Positions 17,740 to 57,212 of a stretch of 57,212 nt of DNA are shown one piece after another. The stretch's first letter is position 1. Each line of letters opens with the position of its first letter. The stretch spans positions 1-57,212 of the forward strand of contig CAMKAT010000006.1 of the NCBI GenBank assembly GCA_946410555.1, read 5' to 3'. The notes under the pieces are model-generated. The model saw nothing but the letters and a program-made list of their open reading frames with translations, did not search any database and was not told the origin of the DNA. This DNA comes from an uncultured Caryophanales bacterium. GTDB taxonomy: Bacteria; Bacillota_I; Bacilli_A; RF39; UBA660. The position numbers and the translations under genes were made by a program.

Positions 17740-18264
17740 CTAAGCAACTAAATCAGATTCTCTAGTTTGATTTAAAGCAGCAGTAAGCATTGTTTCAGTA
17801 GTATCAGCAAAATCTTTGTGAGTACTATCTAAAGCACTTACAGGAACTTCACCGGCATCACTGAAATTCCACCATCCACCAGCATTAGCAACCGATTTAT
17901 TGTGATAGTTTTTATCAGTTAAACGAACTAGAACTTTTAATTCATCGCCAGAAGCTCCAGCTACACAAACAGCAGCATTTCCTTCATAATCTCCAGTTGA
18001 AGTCATACCAATTTCAGCTAAAGTATAAACAGTACATTTACCTACTGTTTTTCCTTTAGGAATACCAGTATCAAAGTTTTTATTCTTTAAATAGAAATTA
18101 TTAGCTGCATTATGAACCTTAGTTACATATTCACTAAATGTTTTTTGTCTAGCTTGTTCCATAGTAGATAATACCGCAGGAATAGCGATAATCATGATGA
18201 TAGCTAAAATAACGATAACTGCTAGTAATTCAACTAATGTGAAACCCTTTCTTGTATTTTTCAT
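17740..18264 (-). CDS. Type IV pilin-like protein (174 aa)
   Basis: Prepilin with leader MKNTRKG, the G/F cleavage site, and the class III N-methylation start FTLVELLAVIVILAI with Glu5. The hydrophobic helix (residues 8-30) would stay in the membrane until assembly into a pilus. The globular part holds two cysteines (GKCTVY and AAVCVAG), probably a disulfide. The gene is monocistronic with the best promoter among the pilin genes (18294-18322) and a strong AAGGAAGGAG site, which fits a major pilin. The PilB-type ATPase at 55 kb is the likely motor partner. A competence ComGC role is an alternative. Confidence 0.88.
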   Translation of the reverse strand: MKNTRKGFTLVELLAVIVILAIIMIIAIPAVLSTMEQARQKTFSEYVTKVHNAANNFYLKNKNFDTGIPKGKTVGKCTVYTLAEIGMTSTGDYEGNAAVCVAGASGDELKVLVRLTDKNYHNKSVANAGGWWNFSDAGEVPVSALDSTHKDFADTTETMLTAALNQTRESDLVA

Positions 18265-28399: not shown

Positions 28400-29407
28400 C
28401 TAATTATCTAACTTAGATAATTCTTCTAATACTTGATTAAAGTTTTCTGCTTTAATAAGTTTTATCTTTAATTTTCTGTTTTCTACCAATTCTTTAGCTT
28501 CATCATAATTCTTTTCAGGAACTATAAATACATCAGCTTTATTCTTAGCAGCTCCTAAGATTTTATATTTAATACCAGCGATTTCACCAACAGTTCCATC
28601 AAGTTCAATAGTACCAGTTCCACTTATCTTTAATCCTTTAGTTATATCTTCTTCTACCAAAGCATTATAAATACTTAAAGAAAGCATCAACCCACCAGAA
28701 GAACCAAGTTCTGATTCTTTATATTCATAATGAATATCAGGATTATTATCATATTCAAATATAGTATCTACAACAATACCAAGAACTTTAACACCATCTA
28801 CCACTGTTACTTTCGCAGTTGCATCTGTTTCTTTTTTATTTCTTAATACTTTAAAGGAAATAGTATCTCCATCATTCTTAGTTTGAATATATTTTCTAAA
28901 TTCTAATGAATCCTTCATTTCTATATCATCATATTTAAGTATCTTATCTCCGATATTTAATGTAGTATCAGCATAGTCATTATAAATATAATAAATATAA
29001 AAATCATAGCTCTTAATATTAATATCTACACCTGCGCTCTTATAAGCATTATAAGTAGCATTACTAATAGATGAATATAAACTAATTGTTTGTGCTTTAG
29101 CTAATGTCTCATAATCTAAATTACTTATATCACTATCTTTAACTATTTCCCAATCAGGTAAAAGTTTAGCAAGTAATACTGTAACTACATTACCCCTATA
29201 AGAGGAGACATAAGTAAGATTAAATGAACCCAGAGCTTTATATTGAATATTAGTAAGTCTATTACTTATATCTATTAATCCACCTGGAGTTTCAACAGTA
29301 ACGTTAGGTTTATAAAAGATACATACAAGTAAAAATATCAAAGTAATAAAATTAATAATATTACCTTTTAAAAATTTAATTATTTTAGTCTTTCTATCTT
29401 CTTTCAT
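28400..29407 (-). CDS. Membrane-anchored PDZ and Lon-type serine protease, SepM/YlbL family
   Basis: 335 aa. A membrane anchor at about residues 18-32 is followed by a PDZ domain (LNIGDKILKYDD, about 145-215) and a C-terminal S16 protease domain. The catalytic Ser is in GSSGGLMLSL (about 236) and the Lys in GIKYKILGAAK (about 278), with the family marker SGTGTIELDGTVGEI. Family members cut exported peptides or membrane proteins outside the cell. It follows the giant pilin-like operon on the same strand but has its own extended -10 (29423-29428). It could process surface or pilus proteins, which is inference. Confidence 0.88.
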   Translation of the reverse strand: MKEDRKTKIIKFLKGNIINFITLIFLLVCIFYKPNVTVETPGGLIDISNRLTNIQYKALGSFNLTYVSSYRGNVVTVLLAKLLPDWEIVKDSDISNLDYETLAKAQTISLYSSISNATYNAYKSAGVDINIKSYDFYIYYIYNDYADTTLNIGDKILKYDDIEMKDSLEFRKYIQTKNDGDTISFKVLRNKKETDATAKVTVVDGVKVLGIVVDTIFEYDNNPDIHYEYKESELGSSGGLMLSLSIYNALVEEDITKGLKISGTGTIELDGTVGEIAGIKYKILGAAKNKADVFIVPEKNYDEAKELVENRKLKIKLIKAENFNQVLEELSKLDN

Positions 29408-29428: not shown

Positions 29429-29434
29429 ACACAA

Positions 29435-29460
29435 TAAAACTGCTTAAAAAAGCAGTCTTA
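29435..29460 (-). terminator. Terminator of the pilin-like operon
   Basis: Stem ACTGCTT / AAGCAGT followed by T4 then A on the minus strand: moderate strength. Confidence 0.7.
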
Positions 29461-29464
29461 TTAA

Positions 29465-32400
29465 TTAAGATAATGTACATCCCGAAGGACCTACATAAGT
29501 AACTTGAGAGAAACTACCATCTATCTTTGGCATATACGTATACGAACCAGTTAAAGCCTTATATTGAGTTTTAGCAGTATTACAATTACTAGAAAGAACA
29601 AATTCCATCTTACCAGTATCATTAGCATAAGTATTCATGTTAAATCCATTAAATATCCACTTCATTCCAAATTCAAGATTTTTATTTTCAGGTTCAGAAG
29701 AATTTCTTTTATAAACATTATTATTAAGGATAAAAGTAAATTTATCAATTCTACCATCCTCAAGTGCTCTTTTACCAACATCTCTAAATGTAGGAGCATG
29801 ATCCCAAGTACTAGCTAAATTATAAGTTTGACCACCTTTTATCTCAATAACAGCCAAATTAGTACATCCATAGAATAATCCATAATCACTATTTGAAGTA
29901 ACAGAATCTTCAAAACGTGTACCTACGATAGGTAAAACAAGTTTATAAATTTCTTTATATCTTTCCGGAGTTATACTAATAGCTTTAGAAATTGGTGCAC
30001 TAAATGAACCACTAAATGTATCAGTAAACGTACAATATGGACTAATTTTTAATCCATCAAGATAACCATCAGGTAATCCTCTTAAAAGTGAACAATCTTT
30101 AAACGCTACAGAAAGGACTTGAGTTGTACCAGTTGTAACAAAATTATCAAAAGGACTCTTTCCATTCTTTAACACATAATCGCCTTCACCAGAAAGGTAT
30201 TTATCAATTTCTTCTTGTGTAGTAAATGATCCATCAACAAAAGTTAAACGATTACAATTAGCAAAAGCACCATAGAAATTTACATTAGTTTTAATTTCAA
30301 AATCATTTAAGAATACATATGTAAGACGTTGAGAATTAAAGAAAATTTGAGAAAAATCAATAGTATTATCAGTAACTTGAGAATGCATACCACTCATATC
30401 AATAGCTCTATATCCAGATTCACAAAACATTTGAGCAAAATTATAACAATTATGTAACTCTAAGAATGAAACATCAAATAAATCTTTATAATTATTACTT
30501 GTATTAGTTCTATAAAACATACCATTAACATTCAAGCAGTTATGCATTGTGAATGTAGGGCCAACAAAATGTTCAAACTTATTAGAGTTTCCTAAGAACC
30601 ATACAGCATTAGCTACTTTATCTAAATTAAAGTTAGTACCATCCTTAGCAAGCCTAACAGTAACAACATGAGTTCCAGCTATCATCCTAGTGACTAAAAT
30701 CGCACTATTAAATGATAACATACTTAAATCTAAATCACCTTCAAGTGAAGTACAATTACATAAAAAATCTGAGAAATCAGAAACATTATGTGTATCAATA
30801 TTAACAAATCCATGAGCTGTAAGTTTATCACACCATCTATAGAATTGAGACATACTTTGAAGATTTGGTGATTTTATATTTTCTACTCTACTAGTAACTA
30901 ATACATCACTATCTTCATACATGTTAGCCATAGTAACTAATTTAGGAACATTTAAATTAAGAAGTGAACTCTCAAGAAGGACAGAATTATGAGCAAGCAT
31001 TGAAGACATATTCTTTAAATTAGGAAAACTCTTACCTGCTCCATCCATAACAAACTTCTTAATACCAGTATTCTTGAATATACCATTTAAAGTAGTTATA
31101 TTATAAGCTGGGAATTCAACATTATAATCAAATAATCCATCAGTACCCACAAGTTTTTTACAATCATTAAATACTGAGTTAGCATTTCTAACATTGCCTA
31201 AATCTGTTCTTCCTTTAAATGGAGAATAAGTTAAAGATGCACATTTATAAAATGCCATAGAAACATCTTTTACTAAAGATAAATCAAACTTATCAAAGTT
31301 AAGTAAATCTATTAAAGAAGAACACTCATAGAACATACTATTAATATTAGTAATACCTGTAGAATTAAATCCTTTAAAATCAACAGTCTTTAAGTTAGTA
31401 AATCCTTTAAACATACTAGAAACTGAATTACCATATACAGATACCCCACCTAATTGATAAATAGTAGCAACATATAATGTAGGATCACTAGGATCTTGCT
31501 TATAACTTAATAAAACAGAACCATTTTGTGAATAAGAAATATCTATACCTGTAATATCTTCTTTACCAGTAGAATCTTCAAAAGTAATCGAAGAAATTCT
31601 ATTCTTATAAAGTTTAGCAGCTATTACCGAAGGTAAATCAACAAAGTTCTTATTCATACCTACTACTGAAGTTTCAGTTTCTTTTGATTCAGAACATACA
31701 TATTGATAAACAGGAGTTACAACTTTAGTCTTATCACAATTTGTTGTAGAACCGCTACAATTACAACTTAAATTATCACTATCACACGAGAATATTGTTT
31801 TAGGGTTTGTAGGTGTTGGATCAGCTGGATCATTTAATCTAAATGAGAAACTCAAATCAAGATTATAATTATAACCATTATCATCGCTTATAGGAATAAA
31901 TAAATTACCCATATTTTCTTTTTGTTCACTATACTTCTTACCCATTTCATAATTGGCAGTATAATTAACACTTATACTAGAATTATCATCAGTTAATACT
32001 AAATTAACATCACTATCTATTTTTTGTACTACTGAATAAGTATCTTTCCAACTACCATAATCATCGTCATCGATAGTCTTACCTACAGTACAATCTTGAT
32101 AGTAACCTTTACCATAACGTATTACCCATGAAGAATTATCACTCTTTTGTTTATAAATAAGAATATAACCTGTATCAGCAATATCATATGTTTTATTATA
32201 TTCAATTCTTACACAGTTAGATACTTCACTAGCATCTAGTGAATCAGGATTAAATCCAAATTGATCAAAAGTACATTTAGAAATAGCTTTTACACCAATT
32301 TCTATCATATCTTTTTCAATAGCTTTAGTAACTACGTTTTGTGAAATAAGAAGTGATGACTTCTTTTTAACATCAGTAGATGCTTTTTGTATTTGTAATA

Positions 32401-32497
32401 GAAGTGCAAATAGCACTCCCATTACAAGTGAAATAATAATAACACTAACTAATACTTCTACGATAGTCATACCACTTGAATTATTACGTCTATTCAT
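29465..32497 (-). CDS. Giant pilin-like protein with BspA-type leucine-rich repeats
   Basis: 1010 aa from ATG 32497, chosen by GGAGGTGC 5 nt upstream; the open frame runs 48 nt further up into the preceding gene. Leader MNRRNNSSG, cleavage site, then MTIVEVLVSVIIISLVMG: a prepilin helix with Glu5, most like PulJ/ComGF pseudopilins. From about residue 330 to 830 come repeats with SMFxxCxxL and NLKTVDFKGF motifs, the BspA/DUF285 type of surface leucine-rich repeat. Many Cys. It is the last of three overlapping pilin-like genes. It probably displays an adhesive or sensing domain on a pilus or pseudopilus tip. Confidence 0.82.
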   Translation of the reverse strand: MNRRNNSSGMTIVEVLVSVIIISLVMGVLFALLLQIQKASTDVKKKSSLLISQNVVTKAIEKDMIEIGVKAISKCTFDQFGFNPDSLDASEVSNCVRIEYNKTYDIADTGYILIYKQKSDNSSWVIRYGKGYYQDCTVGKTIDDDDYGSWKDTYSVVQKIDSDVNLVLTDDNSSISVNYTANYEMGKKYSEQKENMGNLFIPISDDNGYNYNLDLSFSFRLNDPADPTPTNPKTIFSCDSDNLSCNCSGSTTNCDKTKVVTPVYQYVCSESKETETSVVGMNKNFVDLPSVIAAKLYKNRISSITFEDSTGKEDITGIDISYSQNGSVLLSYKQDPSDPTLYVATIYQLGGVSVYGNSVSSMFKGFTNLKTVDFKGFNSTGITNINSMFYECSSLIDLLNFDKFDLSLVKDVSMAFYKCASLTYSPFKGRTDLGNVRNANSVFNDCKKLVGTDGLFDYNVEFPAYNITTLNGIFKNTGIKKFVMDGAGKSFPNLKNMSSMLAHNSVLLESSLLNLNVPKLVTMANMYEDSDVLVTSRVENIKSPNLQSMSQFYRWCDKLTAHGFVNIDTHNVSDFSDFLCNCTSLEGDLDLSMLSFNSAILVTRMIAGTHVVTVRLAKDGTNFNLDKVANAVWFLGNSNKFEHFVGPTFTMHNCLNVNGMFYRTNTSNNYKDLFDVSFLELHNCYNFAQMFCESGYRAIDMSGMHSQVTDNTIDFSQIFFNSQRLTYVFLNDFEIKTNVNFYGAFANCNRLTFVDGSFTTQEEIDKYLSGEGDYVLKNGKSPFDNFVTTGTTQVLSVAFKDCSLLRGLPDGYLDGLKISPYCTFTDTFSGSFSAPISKAISITPERYKEIYKLVLPIVGTRFEDSVTSNSDYGLFYGCTNLAVIEIKGGQTYNLASTWDHAPTFRDVGKRALEDGRIDKFTFILNNNVYKRNSSEPENKNLEFGMKWIFNGFNMNTYANDTGKMEFVLSSNCNTAKTQYKALTGSYTYMPKIDGSFSQVTYVGPSGCTLS

Positions 32498-32498
32498 A

Positions 32499-35177
32499 TT
32501 AAGCACCTCCGAATACAAATGGATCATCTTTAGAACCAGTTCCACTAATAATATGATTACTTAATTTAATACTTATTACTGGATTCATTCCATTACCAGT
32601 CGTTGCTGTTCCTGGCCAAGCAATAAAATGACCATCAAGTAAAGCAGTTATATCATCTGAATACACTTTAGTATCAGTATTAAAACCACCACCAATAGAA
32701 CTAAAAGTTAATCCAACATTATTTAAATAATGACTAGTTGAATAAGTTGCACTATTATTATACGGATTAAAAAGACCAACATAGTAAGCTTCATTCATAG
32801 TAATTAATCCAACCGGATAAGTAAGTAATCCATTTCCATTTGAAGTATCAATAGAATAATTATATTTTTGAGGACATTTTGTATAATAATCTTTTGCTCT
32901 ATTAACGGTATTCCAATCGTCTGAATAACCAATATATTTAACAATCCATCCTTCAGTCAAAGTCTGTCTTGATTTACCAAATCCATTAAAAATATTCAAG
33001 TTATTACAGAATGTAGCATTATAATCTATAAGATCAGTTAAATCTACTCCATTAGCACTCTTACCAACGAAGGAATCGGTAAAGAACTTATCTAAAACAG
33101 TCTTAGCAGTACTTTCATTTTTTCTAGAATCTTTATCTTTACCAAATACTGTTTGATTTGAAGGTCCATGAACATATTCATAAGCATCATTGTAAGTAAG
33201 CATACCATTTCTATATGTAACATAACCTGAATAAGATAAAATCTCGTATACATGATCACACTCATAATTACTTCCATCTTTATCCTTAAGCCAATGAGCA
33301 CAAGCATATCTATGAGTATTAATCTTCTTATGAGTATCAGAAGAAGTATTATTCTTAGCATTAGAAAAACCAGTAAGAGAAACATAATACATATCATTTG
33401 TATTCAAATGATATTTGCCATTACTATAAGTTACAGAACTAGAAAGAGCCAATTGTGAAGACAAAACACTAGTTCTGTCAAGACCATCTTTAAATTTGAA
33501 TATAGTAAGTTGAGAAGTGCTAGGCCAAATATATACTAAATATAATACTGACTCACAAGTAGTAGTTTGACCACCACTACAGAAATACTTTCCTTTATAT
33601 TGATTAAGACCTTCATAAGTAGCTTGTTTACTTGAATAGAACAAACTCTTTTCAGTGACATCACTACCATTTGCCTTTTTCAAAGTATATTTAGAACCAT
33701 CGTAAACAACTTTATCTCCATAATAAACATATTCATTATATGGAATTTCAGAATCAGGAGAAATATCAATGATTACTTTTTCTTCAAGACCAATAATTTG
33801 TGCTAAATCATCATAATTACCAATATAATCTATATTAAATTGATCTTTATACATATAAGAAGCAGATCCATAAAAACGATCAGTATTAAAAGCACTACTA
33901 GAATAAGCTTTTTTCTCACCACATTTATTATCAGCAGCAATATATTTACCATAATAAATAGCTTTAATACCATCACCAGAACCAAAGTTAGAAATTAAAT
34001 TAAAGCAATAATCACCAACAACTGCAAAGTTTTGATTTAATCCAGTACCTTTATAAACAAAGTTACCATTTTCATCATAATTACCATCTTTATCAGTTTT
34101 AGTTAAACCATCAGTACCATTATAAGAAGCAGTTTGACATTCCATAGCACCCCTAAGAGTACCATCGCCACACCAAATTGCATATAACTCTCTATTTTCA
34201 CTATTAATAATAACAGGAGTATTAGCTTTATAACATTTACCTTCAGCTGTTGGAGATCCACTCATACATCTATCATATTCGCCTTCTTTAAGAAGTTCAG
34301 TATTTGTAACCCAACCAACTACTACATTACCAGAATGACCACTCCATCCCATATTGTATGGTAATACATATTCAGTATCATCAGGAATACCATCAACATA
34401 ATAATGTTCACTCTTGCCTGCATCACTATAGAAAGCAAGTGGAAGTACATTTTCTTTTCTAGTAACTTCTGTTAATGAAATCTTAGAATGATATGCATCT
34501 TTAGTAATTTTAAAACTATCATCTTTATAATTAACTAATTCAGCAGTAACAGTCTCACCTGCTTCATTCTTATAAGTAACTTTATCTAAAGGATTTAAAT
34601 AGTCTTTTAAATATTTAATTATAATAAAGTTTCCATCTAAATCTTTCCCTTGACTCTTCAAGTAATCAATTGATGAAGCATCAAAATAACTTGAATTATA
34701 TAACACTTTAAGATTATCTTCATTGATATTACCTAATTTATTAAAATTAACATAATAGATTTTTTGAATATTATAAGTATTAACTACATCATATAAAGGA
34801 TCTGAATTATAACTAGTGTTATTTAAATAACTTGAAAAATCACAAACTTCAATAACATTACCTGCACTAGTCATATCAACTGTACTAGTAACATTTGTAT
34901 AAGAGAATCCTTTACATCCACTTCTATTAAATTTAGAAGCATAATATGCAAAGGAATCTACATAGTTTTCATTAGTATCAGCATTATAATATAAATTATC
35001 TAATAAATCTTTTACAAAATAAGTCTTATAAATAGTATCAATAGTATCATTATTACTCTTTGATCTAGTTTTAATCATTATATTAGAAAATGTAGAATAT
35101 AAACTCATCAAAGTAACAGTTAAAAGAAGAACAACAATTAAAGTTTCTACTAAAACAAAACCATTTTGTTTTTTCAT
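32499..35177 (-). CDS. Giant pilin-like protein with an InlB-type repeat
   Basis: 892 aa. Leader MKKQNG, cleavage site, then FVLVETLIVVLLLTVTL with Glu5: a prepilin helix. The rest is a very large outside region, rich in Tyr, Asn, Ser and Cys. One part (about residues 255-340) follows the Listeria/Bacteroides InlB B-repeat pattern, with EYVLPYNMGW, VVVGWVTN and ENRELYAIW. Its ATG overlaps the stop of the gene before it (ATGA), and the GGAGGT in its own last codons is the ribosome site of the next gene, so the three are tightly coupled. Normal pilins are 150-200 aa; exact function is unknown. Confidence 0.8.
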   Translation of the reverse strand: MKKQNGFVLVETLIVVLLLTVTLMSLYSTFSNIMIKTRSKSNNDTIDTIYKTYFVKDLLDNLYYNADTNENYVDSFAYYASKFNRSGCKGFSYTNVTSTVDMTSAGNVIEVCDFSSYLNNTSYNSDPLYDVVNTYNIQKIYYVNFNKLGNINEDNLKVLYNSSYFDASSIDYLKSQGKDLDGNFIIIKYLKDYLNPLDKVTYKNEAGETVTAELVNYKDDSFKITKDAYHSKISLTEVTRKENVLPLAFYSDAGKSEHYYVDGIPDDTEYVLPYNMGWSGHSGNVVVGWVTNTELLKEGEYDRCMSGSPTAEGKCYKANTPVIINSENRELYAIWCGDGTLRGAMECQTASYNGTDGLTKTDKDGNYDENGNFVYKGTGLNQNFAVVGDYCFNLISNFGSGDGIKAIYYGKYIAADNKCGEKKAYSSSAFNTDRFYGSASYMYKDQFNIDYIGNYDDLAQIIGLEEKVIIDISPDSEIPYNEYVYYGDKVVYDGSKYTLKKANGSDVTEKSLFYSSKQATYEGLNQYKGKYFCSGGQTTTCESVLYLVYIWPSTSQLTIFKFKDGLDRTSVLSSQLALSSSVTYSNGKYHLNTNDMYYVSLTGFSNAKNNTSSDTHKKINTHRYACAHWLKDKDGSNYECDHVYEILSYSGYVTYRNGMLTYNDAYEYVHGPSNQTVFGKDKDSRKNESTAKTVLDKFFTDSFVGKSANGVDLTDLIDYNATFCNNLNIFNGFGKSRQTLTEGWIVKYIGYSDDWNTVNRAKDYYTKCPQKYNYSIDTSNGNGLLTYPVGLITMNEAYYVGLFNPYNNSATYSTSHYLNNVGLTFSSIGGGFNTDTKVYSDDITALLDGHFIAWPGTATTGNGMNPVISIKLSNHIISGTGSKDDPFVFGGA

Positions 35178-36298
35178 TTTTTAACCCCCTTTGTAATTAA
35201 GTATGGTAAAGCACTAGTACCATTACCTGAATCTATATAACCATCAGTACTATCACCAGGTTCATAAATTCTAATAACAGCTGTATATCTAGGATTTAAA
35301 GAACCTATCCTAGATGTACAATGTACTCCATTATCATTTAAGCAATTACCAATAAGAGTATCTAAATAAGTGCAACTATCATACCAATCAGCACCTCCAT
35401 ACTTATGAGAATAAACAGAATATGTTTCACACATCATACTTATTCCCGTAGGATTACTAACATTGTCATTTTGAGTAAAATTCTTATGTCCTATTGAAAC
35501 AAAACCACCATTATCATAACCATAAGCCATAGCATATTCATCTTCGATCCAAATAGTATAGTGAGTGCCTTGATCTAAAATTGCACTCTTTAATTTCTCG
35601 TTTGTAAGTCCAAGAATATATTGAGTTTCAGTATAATTTAAGAAATTAATATCTACACCATCGTTTCTATTATATAAGAATTCATAAGTGAAATATTTAT
35701 AGTATGCACCATTTCTCTTAGCAGTAATACTTGATGGGAATGATATATAACTCTTAGATGCAGCATCATAATAAATATTATAATTTAATAATTCTGATAA
35801 AGTTCTTAATGTAGGAACAGCTATCGTAGGTGTTAATACTCTACCATCACCAGGAACAAAGTTTTTAGGTATGTTAGCACTAGCTATCGGAGTAAACTTT
35901 TGTGCAGATGCATCACTAACAAAATAATAGTCAGTTGCATTCTTAGTAACTATAGTTTCAGTATCTCCTTCTTTTTTAGTAGTTTCTTCAGTTGTATCAT
36001 CAATTTTATATAAAATCCATTTAGTATCAGGGTTAATTGGAGAAGAATATAAGGAATTAGTACCTGTTCCATCTCCCTCATCATCAATTGTATCTAAAAC
36101 AACATAATCTCCGATTTTTAAATCAGAAATTCTAACATTACCATAAGAATCTAATTCTTCCCTAGCCATATCTTCAATTCTATTTATTAATTGTTTATTT
36201 TGAATGAAGTTAGCCATGAAGCCCAAAAATAGTGTTAAAAACGCTACTAGAAATGCATATAAAACGCTAGTTGCAATAAAACCATTTTTTTCTCTCAT
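35174..36298 (-). CDS. Large pilin-like protein (374 aa)
   Basis: Start at ATG 36298: the ATG at 36352 lies upstream of the -10 at 36324-36329. Leader MREKNG, then FIATSVLYAFLVAFLTLFLGF, a prepilin-like hydrophobic helix but without Glu5, as in minor pilins of the GspK/ComGG type. The outside part begins with an N-terminal helix (NRIEDMAREELDS) and ends in a domain with four to five Cys (MMCETYS, WYDSCTY, GNCLND, VHCTS). First gene of the operon, it ends in ATGA shared with the next. A role at the start or tip of a pilus is inferred. Confidence 0.78.
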   Translation of the reverse strand: MREKNGFIATSVLYAFLVAFLTLFLGFMANFIQNKQLINRIEDMAREELDSYGNVRISDLKIGDYVVLDTIDDEGDGTGTNSLYSSPINPDTKWILYKIDDTTEETTKKEGDTETIVTKNATDYYFVSDASAQKFTPIASANIPKNFVPGDGRVLTPTIAVPTLRTLSELLNYNIYYDAASKSYISFPSSITAKRNGAYYKYFTYEFLYNRNDGVDINFLNYTETQYILGLTNEKLKSAILDQGTHYTIWIEDEYAMAYGYDNGGFVSIGHKNFTQNDNVSNPTGISMMCETYSVYSHKYGGADWYDSCTYLDTLIGNCLNDNGVHCTSRIGSLNPRYTAVIRIYEPGDSTDGYIDSGNGTSALPYLITKGVKK

Positions 36299-36323: not shown

Positions 36324-36352
36324 ATTATAAAGAATATATAAAATAAATACAA
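36324..36352 (-). promoter_or_regulatory. Promoter of the giant pilin-like operon
   Basis: -35 TTGTAT (36347-36352), 17-nt spacer, -10 TATAAT (36324-36329). Confidence 0.8.
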
Positions 36353-36363
36353 TAAACTGACAC

Positions 36364-36392
36364 AAAAAAAGAACTAAAAATTAGTTCTTTTT
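36364..36392 (-). terminator. Terminator of lon, using its last codons
   Basis: Stem AAAGAACTAA / TTAGTTCTTT with T7 on the minus strand; the 5' arm encodes Lys-Asn and contains the TAA. Confidence 0.9.
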
Positions 36393-38666
36393 ACTCTTTT
36401 TAAATAATTCATTATATACATCAATAAAATTATCTACACAAACAACATCAATTTGTGATTTTATTGAATCTGGTACTGAATCTAAATCATTTTTATTTTC
36501 ATAAGGAATAAATACTTTCTTGAAATTATTATTAACAGCTCCAATTATTTTTTCCTTAATTCCACCAACCTTCATAACATCACCATAAAGATCAATTTCA
36601 CCAGTAAATCCTATATCTGGAGATATTGCTTTATCTAATAAAAGTGATATAAATGCAGAAGCAAGTGCCACTCCACCTGAAGAACCTGACTTTTTAATTG
36701 CATAACATAAAGCATTAACATGATAATCTTTATTCATAATCTTCTTTTGATCTATACCAAATTTACTAGAATTACGAATAATATAATTAAGTGCAACTCT
36801 AGCTGATTCTTCAACTGAAGAATGAACATTACCAGTCATTATAAGTTTACCTGAACCAGGAAGATCCACAATTTCAAAATTAATTACAAATCCACCATAA
36901 GGTGTTACACCTAAGCTTGAAGACATACCTGTATGCACTCTTTTAGTAATAGTAAAATCATACTTAATAGGTCCTAAGATTTCTTTAACTAAATCTTCAG
37001 TTAAAGTCTTACTTTGTCTTTCATTAACAAGCATATTTCTAACTATTTTCTTTAATGTTCTATCCAAATTTCTTACACCAGATTCATGAGTATAACCATC
37101 AATAATTAACTTTAATGCATCATCTGTAAGCTTAATTTTCTTCATATTATATTCTTCGAATATGTTAGGAAGTAAATACTTCTTAGCTATATCAATTTTC
37201 TCTTCTTGGGTATAAGAAGAAACATCTATAACTTCTAATCTATCTCTTAACATCGAAGGAATATTATTTAAATCATTTGCAGTTAATATAAATAAAACTT
37301 TAGATAAATCAAATGGTTCTTCGATATAAAAATCTACGAAGTTTTGATTTTGTTTAGGATCAAGTATATCAAGAAGTACTGATGCAGGATCTCCTTGATA
37401 ATCCTTAACCATCTTATCAACTTCATCAATTAATATGACAGGATTAGCAGTTCCACACTTTTTAATTCCTTGCATAATAACACCTGGAGATGAACCTAAA
37501 TAAGTTCTTCTATGTCCTGTTAATTCTGTAGAATCAGAAAGACCACCAACTGATATCTTAAAGAACTCTCTATTTAAAGCATTAGCAATTGATGCTCCTA
37601 AGGTAGTTTTACCAGTTCCTGGAGGACCAACTAAACAAATAATTGGTGAATTTAAATTACTACTTTGTTTCTTAATAGCAATAAACTCTAAGATTCTTAA
37701 TTTTACTTCATCAAGTCCATAATGGCTATCATCTAAAGTTTTCTTAATTTTTCTTAAATCAGATACATCTTTAGAATAATTCTTCCAAGGTAAATTAATA
37801 ACAGTGTCTAAATAGTTTCTAATAACTGATGAATCAGGGTTAGTATCACTAGTATAAGAATATTTCTTAACTTCATTTAAAAGTTTTGTTTTACTCTTAT
37901 CACTAATATCTAACTCATTAATCTTTTCATTATAAATAAGAACTTCTTCATTCTTATCTAAAGTACCACCAATTTCTTTAAATAACTTAGATATTTTTTG
38001 TCTAATAATATATTCTCTTTGTTCTTTTTCAAAAGAATCTCTTAAATCATCATCAATTTTATTTAAAATCTCATTAGCTTTAGTTTCATTATAAATATCT
38101 TTAATAAGCATTTCACTTCTTTTAATATAATCAAATTCAAGCATATACTTAGCTTTGATAGAAAGATCAAAATCTACTAAATCAAGTACTAAATCAGATA
38201 TATAATCTAGATCATTACTTTCTTCAATTAAAGAATAAATAGAATTAGATACGCCAGGAGTTTCATCCATATACTTCTTAGCTAATTCTTTAATCTTTTT
38301 AAGATTAGCTTCTTCTTCCAAAGTAACAGGATTACTAATATATAACTTTTTAAACGAACTCATTAATATAGAATTATTATTTTCATATGATTTAACTTGT
38401 ACTCTATTTAAACCATTAATAATAACTCTTAAATTTCCATTTGATAAAACTAACTTCTTAGAAATTTTACCAATAACCCCTACCTTAGGGAAATCATTAT
38501 CAGTATTATCTAAAGAAGAAAATATAACTAATACTTTCTTATTATATTCATCACAAGCATAGTTAATAATATCTTTAGTTTTATCTTCATGAAAATCAAG
38601 TTTCAATTCTTGATAAGGAAGCAATACATGTTTATTAAGAATTAAAACCGGTAAGTTCTCAGTCAT
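36381..38666 (-). CDS. lon: ATP-dependent protease Lon
   Basis: Hexameric cytoplasmic AAA+ serine protease for damaged and regulatory proteins. 761 aa. N-terminal substrate domain (LPVLILNKHVLLPYQELKL), a helical linker, Walker A GPPGTGKTTLGAS near 347, Walker B LIDEVDKM, and the S16 domain with catalytic Ser in GSSGGVALASAF (about 660) and Lys in GGIKEKIIGA (about 702). The ATG follows GAGGAGGAAT. Monocistronic between its own promoter and terminator. Confidence 0.97.
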   Translation of the reverse strand: MTENLPVLILNKHVLLPYQELKLDFHEDKTKDIINYACDEYNKKVLVIFSSLDNTDNDFPKVGVIGKISKKLVLSNGNLRVIINGLNRVQVKSYENNNSILMSSFKKLYISNPVTLEEEANLKKIKELAKKYMDETPGVSNSIYSLIEESNDLDYISDLVLDLVDFDLSIKAKYMLEFDYIKRSEMLIKDIYNETKANEILNKIDDDLRDSFEKEQREYIIRQKISKLFKEIGGTLDKNEEVLIYNEKINELDISDKSKTKLLNEVKKYSYTSDTNPDSSVIRNYLDTVINLPWKNYSKDVSDLRKIKKTLDDSHYGLDEVKLRILEFIAIKKQSSNLNSPIICLVGPPGTGKTTLGASIANALNREFFKISVGGLSDSTELTGHRRTYLGSSPGVIMQGIKKCGTANPVILIDEVDKMVKDYQGDPASVLLDILDPKQNQNFVDFYIEEPFDLSKVLFILTANDLNNIPSMLRDRLEVIDVSSYTQEEKIDIAKKYLLPNIFEEYNMKKIKLTDDALKLIIDGYTHESGVRNLDRTLKKIVRNMLVNERQSKTLTEDLVKEILGPIKYDFTITKRVHTGMSSSLGVTPYGGFVINFEIVDLPGSGKLIMTGNVHSSVEESARVALNYIIRNSSKFGIDQKKIMNKDYHVNALCYAIKKSGSSGGVALASAFISLLLDKAISPDIGFTGEIDLYGDVMKVGGIKEKIIGAVNNNFKKVFIPYENKNDLDSVPDSIKSQIDVVCVDNFIDVYNELFKKSKKN

Positions 38667-55342: not shown

Positions 55343-57212
55343 ATGGATAATAAAGAAATGATTATGAATAATGTACCTACAGTTGAAACTAACCCTGTAC
55401 AACCACCAGAAGTAGCAAATCAAGTTCCACAAGTTGAAGCTGCTGCTCCAGCTGCTATACCAACTGTAGATAATAATATACAAACTCCACTTCCAGGAAG
55501 TGAGGCTCCAGTAACACCTGAAGTACAACCTGCAGCTAGTGTTACTCCTGAAGTAAGTACTGCTTTACCAGGAGATCCTAATGTAAATAGTGCTCCAGTT
55601 GAACAAACACTACCAGGTGATGCTCTTCCAGGAGATACAGTACAAAACTTAGAATTAAGTGATGCTAATTCAGCTGGTCCTGCTACTCGTGCAGCGGGTC
55701 TTACTGGTATGGTTACATTCGATTATAACAACACACCAATCACAGACATCGTTAACTCAATTATTCTAGACGCAATTGATAAAGGTGTATCAGATATCCA
55801 TTTAGACCCATATGAAGAAGGAATTAAAATAAGAATAAGAATAGATGGTTTATTACATGACTACTCTATTGTTCCTTTATACGTAAAAAGAAACTTAGTT
55901 ACTAGAATTAAAATTATTTCTGGTATGAATATAACAGAATCAAGAATACCTCAAGATGGTGCCATAAGAACTACTATTAACGATCAACCTATAGATATCC
56001 GTGTATCAGTACTTCCTACTAACATGGGTGAAAAAGTCGTTCTTCGTATCATGGACTACACAATGTCAGCTCAAGGTATTGATCATATTGATTTCTCAGA
56101 TTTTAATATAAAGAAAATACATAAAATGATGGAACTTCCAAATGGAATTATCCTAGTTACTGGTGCTACTGGTTCTGGTAAATCTACTACAGTATATTCT
56201 GTATTACAAGCACTTAATGATGAAGAAACAAATATCATCACAGTTGAGGACCCAGTCGAGATGAACATCGAAGGTATCAACCAAGTTCAAACTCAATCTG
56301 AAATTGGACTGACATTCGCATCAGTATTACGTTCTATCTTACGTCAAGACCCAGATATCATAATGGTCGGAGAAATTCGTGATGATGAAACTGCAAGAAT
56401 TGCCGTAAGAGCAGCCATCACAGGACACTTAGTATTATCTACAATCCATACAAACAACGCGCTTAATACTATCGAACGTTTAACTGATATGTCAGTTGAA
56501 AGATACTTATTAGGTTCTGCCCTATCTGGTATCATTTCACAAAAGTTAGCTCGTAGATTATGTCCTAAATGTAAAAAATTAAGACCAACAACAGATTATG
56601 AAAAAGAAATCTTCCGTAAAACAATGAAAGAAGAAGTTAATGAAATATATGATGCAGTTGGTTGTGATGAATGTTCTAAAGGATATCGTGGACGTATCGC
56701 AGTACATGAAGTATTATTATTAAATCAACACGTTAGAGATGCGATTACACAAAATGTTCCTAAATCCGAATTAAGAAAAGCAGTATATGGTCGTGCAGAT
56801 ACAAGAACAATGCTTGAAGATGGTTTAGGAAAAGTTCTAACTGGTGATACTACATTTGATGAAATAATTAAACTTATAGACCTAGATGATGATTTAGGAT
56901 CAGATACACAATTAGGATTACAAAACCAAATCGAAGATGCTGAAATAAATGATGCAAATGAATCAAAAGAAGTTACACCTAAAGAAGAAACTAAGGTTGA
57001 AGAAACTAAGGTTGAAGAAACTAAAGAAGTAGAACCTACTCCTGAAGTTTCAGAAGAACCAAAAATTGAAGAATCAAAGGTTGAAGAAACTAAAGTTCAA
57101 GAACCTGAAGTAACAAAAGAAGAAACTAAAGAAGCTCCTAAAGAAGAAACGGATCCAGATAAAATAACAAATGCAGTTAATGATGATTATTCATTCTTAA
57201 AGAATAATCCAT
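55343..57212 (+). CDS. pilB: PilB/GspE-type assembly ATPase (3' end beyond window)
   Basis: Hexameric cytoplasmic motor that drives pilus or pseudopilus extension. 623 codons are in the window and the frame is still open. The usual MshEN domain is replaced by about 120 residues rich in Pro, Ala and Val with repeated LPGD/LPGS. Then the N2 domain (ASDIHLDPY variant VSDIHLDPY), Walker A GATGSGKSTT (about 273), Asp box TVEDPVE, Walker B IIMVGEIRD (about 336), His box TIHTN, and the zinc tetracysteine CPKC (406) with CDEC (440). After about 540 comes an acidic tail of repeated VEETK units. TTGAT is a poor ribosome site. A ComGA role is possible. Confidence 0.93.
   Translation, partial: MDNKEMIMNNVPTVETNPVQPPEVANQVPQVEAAAPAAIPTVDNNIQTPLPGSEAPVTPEVQPAASVTPEVSTALPGDPNVNSAPVEQTLPGDALPGDTVQNLELSDANSAGPATRAAGLTGMVTFDYNNTPITDIVNSIILDAIDKGVSDIHLDPYEEGIKIRIRIDGLLHDYSIVPLYVKRNLVTRIKIISGMNITESRIPQDGAIRTTINDQPIDIRVSVLPTNMGEKVVLRIMDYTMSAQGIDHIDFSDFNIKKIHKMMELPNGIILVTGATGSGKSTTVYSVLQALNDEETNIITVEDPVEMNIEGINQVQTQSEIGLTFASVLRSILRQDPDIIMVGEIRDDETARIAVRAAITGHLVLSTIHTNNALNTIERLTDMSVERYLLGSALSGIISQKLARRLCPKCKKLRPTTDYEKEIFRKTMKEEVNEIYDAVGCDECSKGYRGRIAVHEVLLLNQHVRDAITQNVPKSELRKAVYGRADTRTMLEDGLGKVLTGDTTFDEIIKLIDLDDDLGSDTQLGLQNQIEDAEINDANESKEVTPKEETKVEETKVEETKEVEPTPEVSEEPKIEESKVEETKVQEPEVTKEETKEAPKEETDPDKITNAVNDDYSFLKNNP

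Follow-up and report, generated by a model that had tools for sequence, protein, structure and literature searches.

The question raised by this locus is whether three coupled genes (A, B and C) form a minor-pilin operon in which the globular heads have turned into large surface modules, as the preliminary description of this DNA had proposed. In the present study, we analyzed the window, that is, the whole stretch of 57,212 nucleotides, which is contig C6 of a low-GC 1.36-Mb genome (G000). The nearest named records were uncultured Bacilli MAGs, including one from goat rumen (RGIG3504), RUI228, and others that, judging by their names, came from rabbit gut.

Structure and conservation of the A-B-C locus

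The genes, the putative signals and the neighbors of the locus are as follows.

36381..38666, minus strand: lon, conserved neighbor
36366..36392, minus strand: weak hairpin and T-run after lon, upstream of A
36324..36352, minus strand: putative promoter before A, TTGTAT-N17-TATAAT
36298..35174, minus strand: gene A, ORF of 374 aa
35177..32499, minus strand: gene B, ORF of 892 aa
32497..29465, minus strand: gene C, 1010 aa counted from ATG
29432..29463, minus strand: terminator-like 14-bp hairpin after C
28400..29407, minus strand: SepM/YlbL-type protease with PDZ and Lon_C domains, conserved neighbor (PF05362, E 2.4e-11; PF13180, E 6e-9)

The three reading frames were confirmed at these lengths; the mechanical ORF of gene C comprised 1026 aa, with a GTG start 16 codons upstream of the ATG. 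The ATGA overlap of A and B (AAAAAATGAAAAAA) had been read correctly in the preliminary description, as had the junction of B and C (TTC GGA GGT GCT TAA T ATG), in which the GGAGGTG ribosome site of C lies within the last codons of B. A single shared promoter is also plausible, with a perfect -10 and a poor -35 element that together scored under the threshold of the consensus scan. Hairpins were found both after lon and after C, and the three genes thus look like one unit. The flanking SepM-type protease and Lon were both present as first described, but they represent conserved synteny with housekeeping genes and carry no functional sign.

A comparison of neighborhoods, suggested earlier as a check, revealed a conserved locus. 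Of the 80 genomes searched (own genome counted), 23 had a homologue of A, and the order lon-A-B-C-(sepM)-mutS was kept in the genus and in neighboring genera, although some genomes had one or two additional genes or a local rearrangement. At the same locus, B and C were ordinary minor pilins, small (161-264 and 247-269 aa, respectively) and ungrafted, in nine genomes, namely G003, G005, G006, G008, G009 and G010 and those of the loci L041, L096 and L097. The enlarged forms (B 855-901 aa, C 1010-1040 aa), which are 4-5 times the usual size, both occurred only in G000, G001 and G002, and these formed one clade in the Lon tree with a support of 100/100. The alignable part comprised residues 1 to about 240 in giant B and 1 to about 268 in giant C; since the small orthologues aligned only with these N-terminal parts, the extra parts of B and C are C-terminal grafts. 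By parsimony, the distribution favors one gain per gene over loss in the remaining genomes.

All of these genomes are MAGs, and the giant frames might have been assembly chimeras or gene-fusion artefacts. However, equal lengths, equal boundaries and intact frames were found in three separately assembled MAGs with a graft identity of 34-46%, so we rejected this explanation, which is refuted for practical purposes. Identity over the entire proteins was 45-48% for A, 39% for B and 43-44% for C. The graft identity compares with 82-85% for Lon and 93% for MutS, and such fast divergence is as expected for exposed parts. A foreign base composition of the grafts was also considered, and the GC content (29-30% versus 27% for the window) was not telling.

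Pilin modules and C-terminal grafts of B and C

The modules of the two enlarged proteins were delimited as follows.

34458..35177, minus strand: B pilin module, about residues 1-240, MKKQNG/FVLVETL (slash, end of the leader), aligning with full-length orthologues of 161-264 aa
32499..34457, minus strand: C-terminal graft of B (about 650 aa), without a curated domain and absent from small orthologues
32511..33338, minus strand: end module of the B graft (residues about 614-889), a distant relative of DUF6273
31694..32497, minus strand: C pilin module, residues 1-268, MNRRNNSSG/MTIVEVL (PF07963, E 3.4e-5, over cut-off)
29465..31693, minus strand: C C-terminal graft, about 740 aa, DUF285/PARCEL (BspA-type) repeats (PF03382, E 1.4e-11)

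Both proteins begin with a class-III prepilin signal, G/FxxxE in B and G/MxxxE in C. The signal of C passed the N_methyl cut-off, and that of B scored 19.9 bits, just below the cut-off of 21.2. These signals were kept among the orthologues, one B having Ala at position -1. The preliminary description had held that homologues lacking the Gly and the hydrophobic helix would speak against pilins; the small forms of B and C retained Gly, Phe, Glu5 and the helix, whereas A was found without Glu5. The AF2 model of the B pilin module consisted of a long helix (6-39) followed by a helix and strands, mostly with a pLDDT of 75-90; the model of B overall reached a pTM of 0.45 and a mean pLDDT of 66, and a PDB fold search with it returned nothing below E 0.2. 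The structure prediction advised earlier for the heads supported a helix and strands in the B module, and the models of A and B yielded no PDB fold match. C weakly matched the ComGE and ComGF models, and the ComGE match was seen in all 12 orthologues (best 1.7e-5).

The graft of C matched PF03382 in four stretches with 44.6 bits against a gathering cut-off of 25, which confirmed the BspA-like module that had been proposed. Its profile matched in 104 of 386 family genomes, and BLASTP returned full-length orthologues in the clade together with distant matches to many DUF285 proteins. Against PDB sequences, the profile gave one weak match, the cell surface protein 4gt6 (E 0.2). The two other head types proposed at first were not borne out. 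The head of B had been called InlB-like, and Pfam InlB-repeat and Flg_new models had no match up to E 10 in the stretch of B concerned in any of the three species. The Cys content (A 1.1%, B 1.6%, C 2.3%) was similar to that of the small orthologues, and therefore the heads are not Cys-rich.

The B graft was found in 3 genomes of one clade, with an identity of 34-40%. Its profile had matches in 178 of the 386 family genomes, most of them covering the end module, which is common on surface proteins of the family, non-pilin ones included; DUF6273 was matched by 3 of 29 end-module members (best E 4e-4). No known ligand-binding fold was recognized in the B graft, and its profile gave only chance-like antibody matches among PDB sequences. 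The end module also occurred twice on the B of G045 (624 aa; L042:6563-8437), from another genus, and once on the A of G030 (689 aa; L050:4107-6176), from a third genus. These placements are independent, and they indicate that the operon received the module more than once.

Collectively, B and C fit the modular pilin on sequence grounds, each combining a pilin module with a separate C-terminal domain that is not pilus-specific. Both graft modules are also borne by surface proteins other than pilins. For these two genes, the proposed conversion of heads into large surface modules was well supported, with ungrafted orthologues at the same locus. A pilin N-terminus joined to an unrelated C-terminal domain is likewise the hallmark of the modular pilins in InterPro, where more than 1,200 proteins with 264 architectures have been reported (PMC8179133). 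The main text of that study names neither DUF285 (IPR005046) nor IPR011889, and its supplementary dataset may list them. Modular minor pilins are thus an already known kind; the present case stands out by the small orthologues at the same locus and by the abundance of modular prepilins across the clade.

Gene A, the assembly machinery and comparable systems

Gene A encodes a basic leader (MREKNG/F) and a hydrophobic helix, in the sequence MREKNG/FIATSVLYAF. G(-1), F(+1), S(+5) and Y(+8) were invariant in 16 of 16 homologues; Ser accordingly replaced Glu at +5 in all of them, A does not carry the class-III signal with Glu5, and pilin HMMs did not match A. A is accordingly a less secure pilin than B and C. 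A had been described as a pilin-like giant, and its leader, Gly and helix agree with the first half of that description; Glu5 is missing, and with 374 aa, against 338-413 aa in relatives, A is not enlarged in the three-species clade. Its AF2 model (pTM 0.69, mean pLDDT 66) had no match in a PDB fold search, with nothing below E 0.2. A common head of A and B was also considered and rejected, as the profile comparison matched the last 27 columns only, with a probability of 4%. Previous studies have reported tip complexes with a cap subunit without Glu5 (PMC10191384), and PilA of S. sanguinis likewise has no Glu5 (PMC9934059); A may therefore work as a tip cap. A is probably a pilin and would act as an initiator or cap minor pilin. 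Separately, orphan A-like proteins of 138-709 aa with a G/F leader and no Glu5 were observed outside the operon in other genera (L046, L047, L048 and L052).

The window contains the following further components of pilus machinery.

55343..57212, plus strand: assembly ATPase of the PilB/ComGA type, truncated at the contig end (PF00437, E 1.3e-124)
17740..18264, minus strand: small ComGC/GspG-like pilin, 174 aa
50074..50685, minus strand: small ComGC/GspG-like pilin, 203 aa

Genes for PilC and PilD lie at the end of contig C12, which probably continues the sequence past PilB, and ComEC is encoded in the genome. The PilM and PilN models had no match and a PilT-type ATPase was not found in this genome, which is 94% complete; because part of the machinery lies on other contig ends, these absences are not certain. 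The sole other strong T2SSE ATPase sits among Tad-like genes; this Tad-like set (CpaB-like, TadA-type ATPase, TadB/TadC-like; L032:2368-7330, G000:C13) constitutes a second filament system. At 94% completeness, and as far as gene content tells, the set of components is similar to that of a Com-type pilus.

With the Com pilus and its minor pilins ComGD-GE-GF-GG (PMC12153270), the system shares a minimal machinery of ATPase, platform, peptidase and pilins, ComEC, and the weak ComGE/GF matches of C. Unlike in the Com pilus, the genes are not arranged in one comG operon and the subunits are far larger. DNA uptake may be the base function of this pilus. A narrower explanation sees in the three genes no more than the ComGE/GF/GG-type portion of a pilus for DNA uptake, with grafts that either help to capture DNA or are neutral. 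It would account for ComEC, for PilM/PilN and a PilT-type second ATPase not being seen, and for the ComGE/ComGF matches, but other genomes manage with small orthologues, the two graft families are surface modules of general occurrence, and open frames conserved in three species argue against neutral additions. We consider this explanation decidedly unlikely.

The closest parallel is S. sanguinis, in which PilA (without Glu5), PilB (vWA) and PilC (lectin) were modeled at the tip of the pilus (PMC8179133, PMC9934059). Common to both systems are a three-subunit minor-pilin set in a monoderm, one subunit without Glu5 and two subunits with large C-terminal modules. The modules here differ, being DUF285 repeats and a DUF6273-related module in grafts of 650-740 aa with putative binding; moreover, PilM, PilN and a PilT-type ATPase were not found in the 94% complete genome, and the present system has known small orthologues at the same locus.

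Taken together, A-B-C is likely an operon for the minor pilins of a minimal type IV pilus of the Com type, with B and C carrying grafted tip modules. In this clade, B and C have each gained a large C-terminal module. By analogy with S. sanguinis PilABC, a prepilin peptidase whose gene lies elsewhere in the genome would cleave the leaders. The filament would begin with, and be capped by, a tip complex of A (without Glu5), B and C, and PilB and PilC would push it out. The tip would then present two bulky modules, the BspA-type repeats of C and the DUF6273-related module of B, whose most likely role would be to bind a ligand, be it on host tissue, on feed particles or on other cells. Modules of this size could hinder assembly.

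Prepilin repertoire of the clade and its implications

A census by family searches (N_methyl and DUF285, with overlap counted by shared contig and frame length) revealed 20, 27 and 26 N_methyl prepilins in G000, G001 and G002, respectively, compared with 5-8 in those other members of the genus that gave a match; no N_methyl prepilin was matched in G007. DUF285 matches numbered 40, 54 and 36 in the same three genomes versus 0-2 in other genus members, and DUF285-bearing prepilins 8, 12 and 11 versus none. One further DUF285 prepilin of G000 was cut at a contig end. The DUF285 prepilins read in G001 and G002 started with the GFTLxE prepilin motif. As the three genomes form one clade, the expansion of prepilins and DUF285 counts as one correlated change, not three; the DUF285 prepilins of other genera (L079, L082 and L083) look independent. 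PARCEL/DUF285 surface repeats have been described on lipoproteins and other membrane-targeted proteins (PMC2996958), and the word 'pili' is absent from the text of that report; the same family occurs here on C and on 8-12 prepilins per clade genome.

Several individual prepilins were also observed. In a 751-aa prepilin (L135:1486-3741; G000:C2, minus strand), DUF285 repeats came after a GH5 cellulase domain (PF00150, E 3e-37), which makes it a glycoside hydrolase borne by a pilin. DUF285 arrays were also present on prepilins of 438-813 aa at scattered sites of G000 (L127, L128, L131, L132, L134 and L136), and one pair of tandem prepilins (379 and 383 aa; L129:1284-3816) had near-identical N-terminal halves and different C-terminal halves.

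The size of this repertoire bears on another explanation, namely that B and C are membrane-held surface proteins whose pilin N-termini serve only as an anchor or as a transient processing signal. The 20-27 prepilins of the clade are too many for a single tip, the grafts are very bulky, and the lack of a pilin HMM match to A points in the same direction. However, small orthologues that resemble ordinary minor pilins share the conserved Gly, Phe, Glu5 and helix, and the genome has retained PilB, PilC and PilD; we therefore regard membrane-held proteins as rather unlikely and prefer the minor-pilin operon. A broader, tentative possibility is that a minimal Com-type DNA-uptake pilus was turned into a general display scaffold in this clade, with an adhesive and possibly enzymatic surface largely built of pilins. 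It is suggested by the large modules, mostly BspA-type and in one case GH5, on two of the three tip subunits and on about ten other prepilins, and we regard it as possible but doubtful.

The origin of modular pilins is usually guessed from domain lists. Here, the grafted and ungrafted states stand at one locus within one genus, and other genera differ in which subunit of the operon bears the end module, which makes the grafting hypothesis testable. The findings suggest that very large cargo can be accommodated by the tip complex, and they draw attention to a clade from the gut whose surface may consist in large part of pilins.
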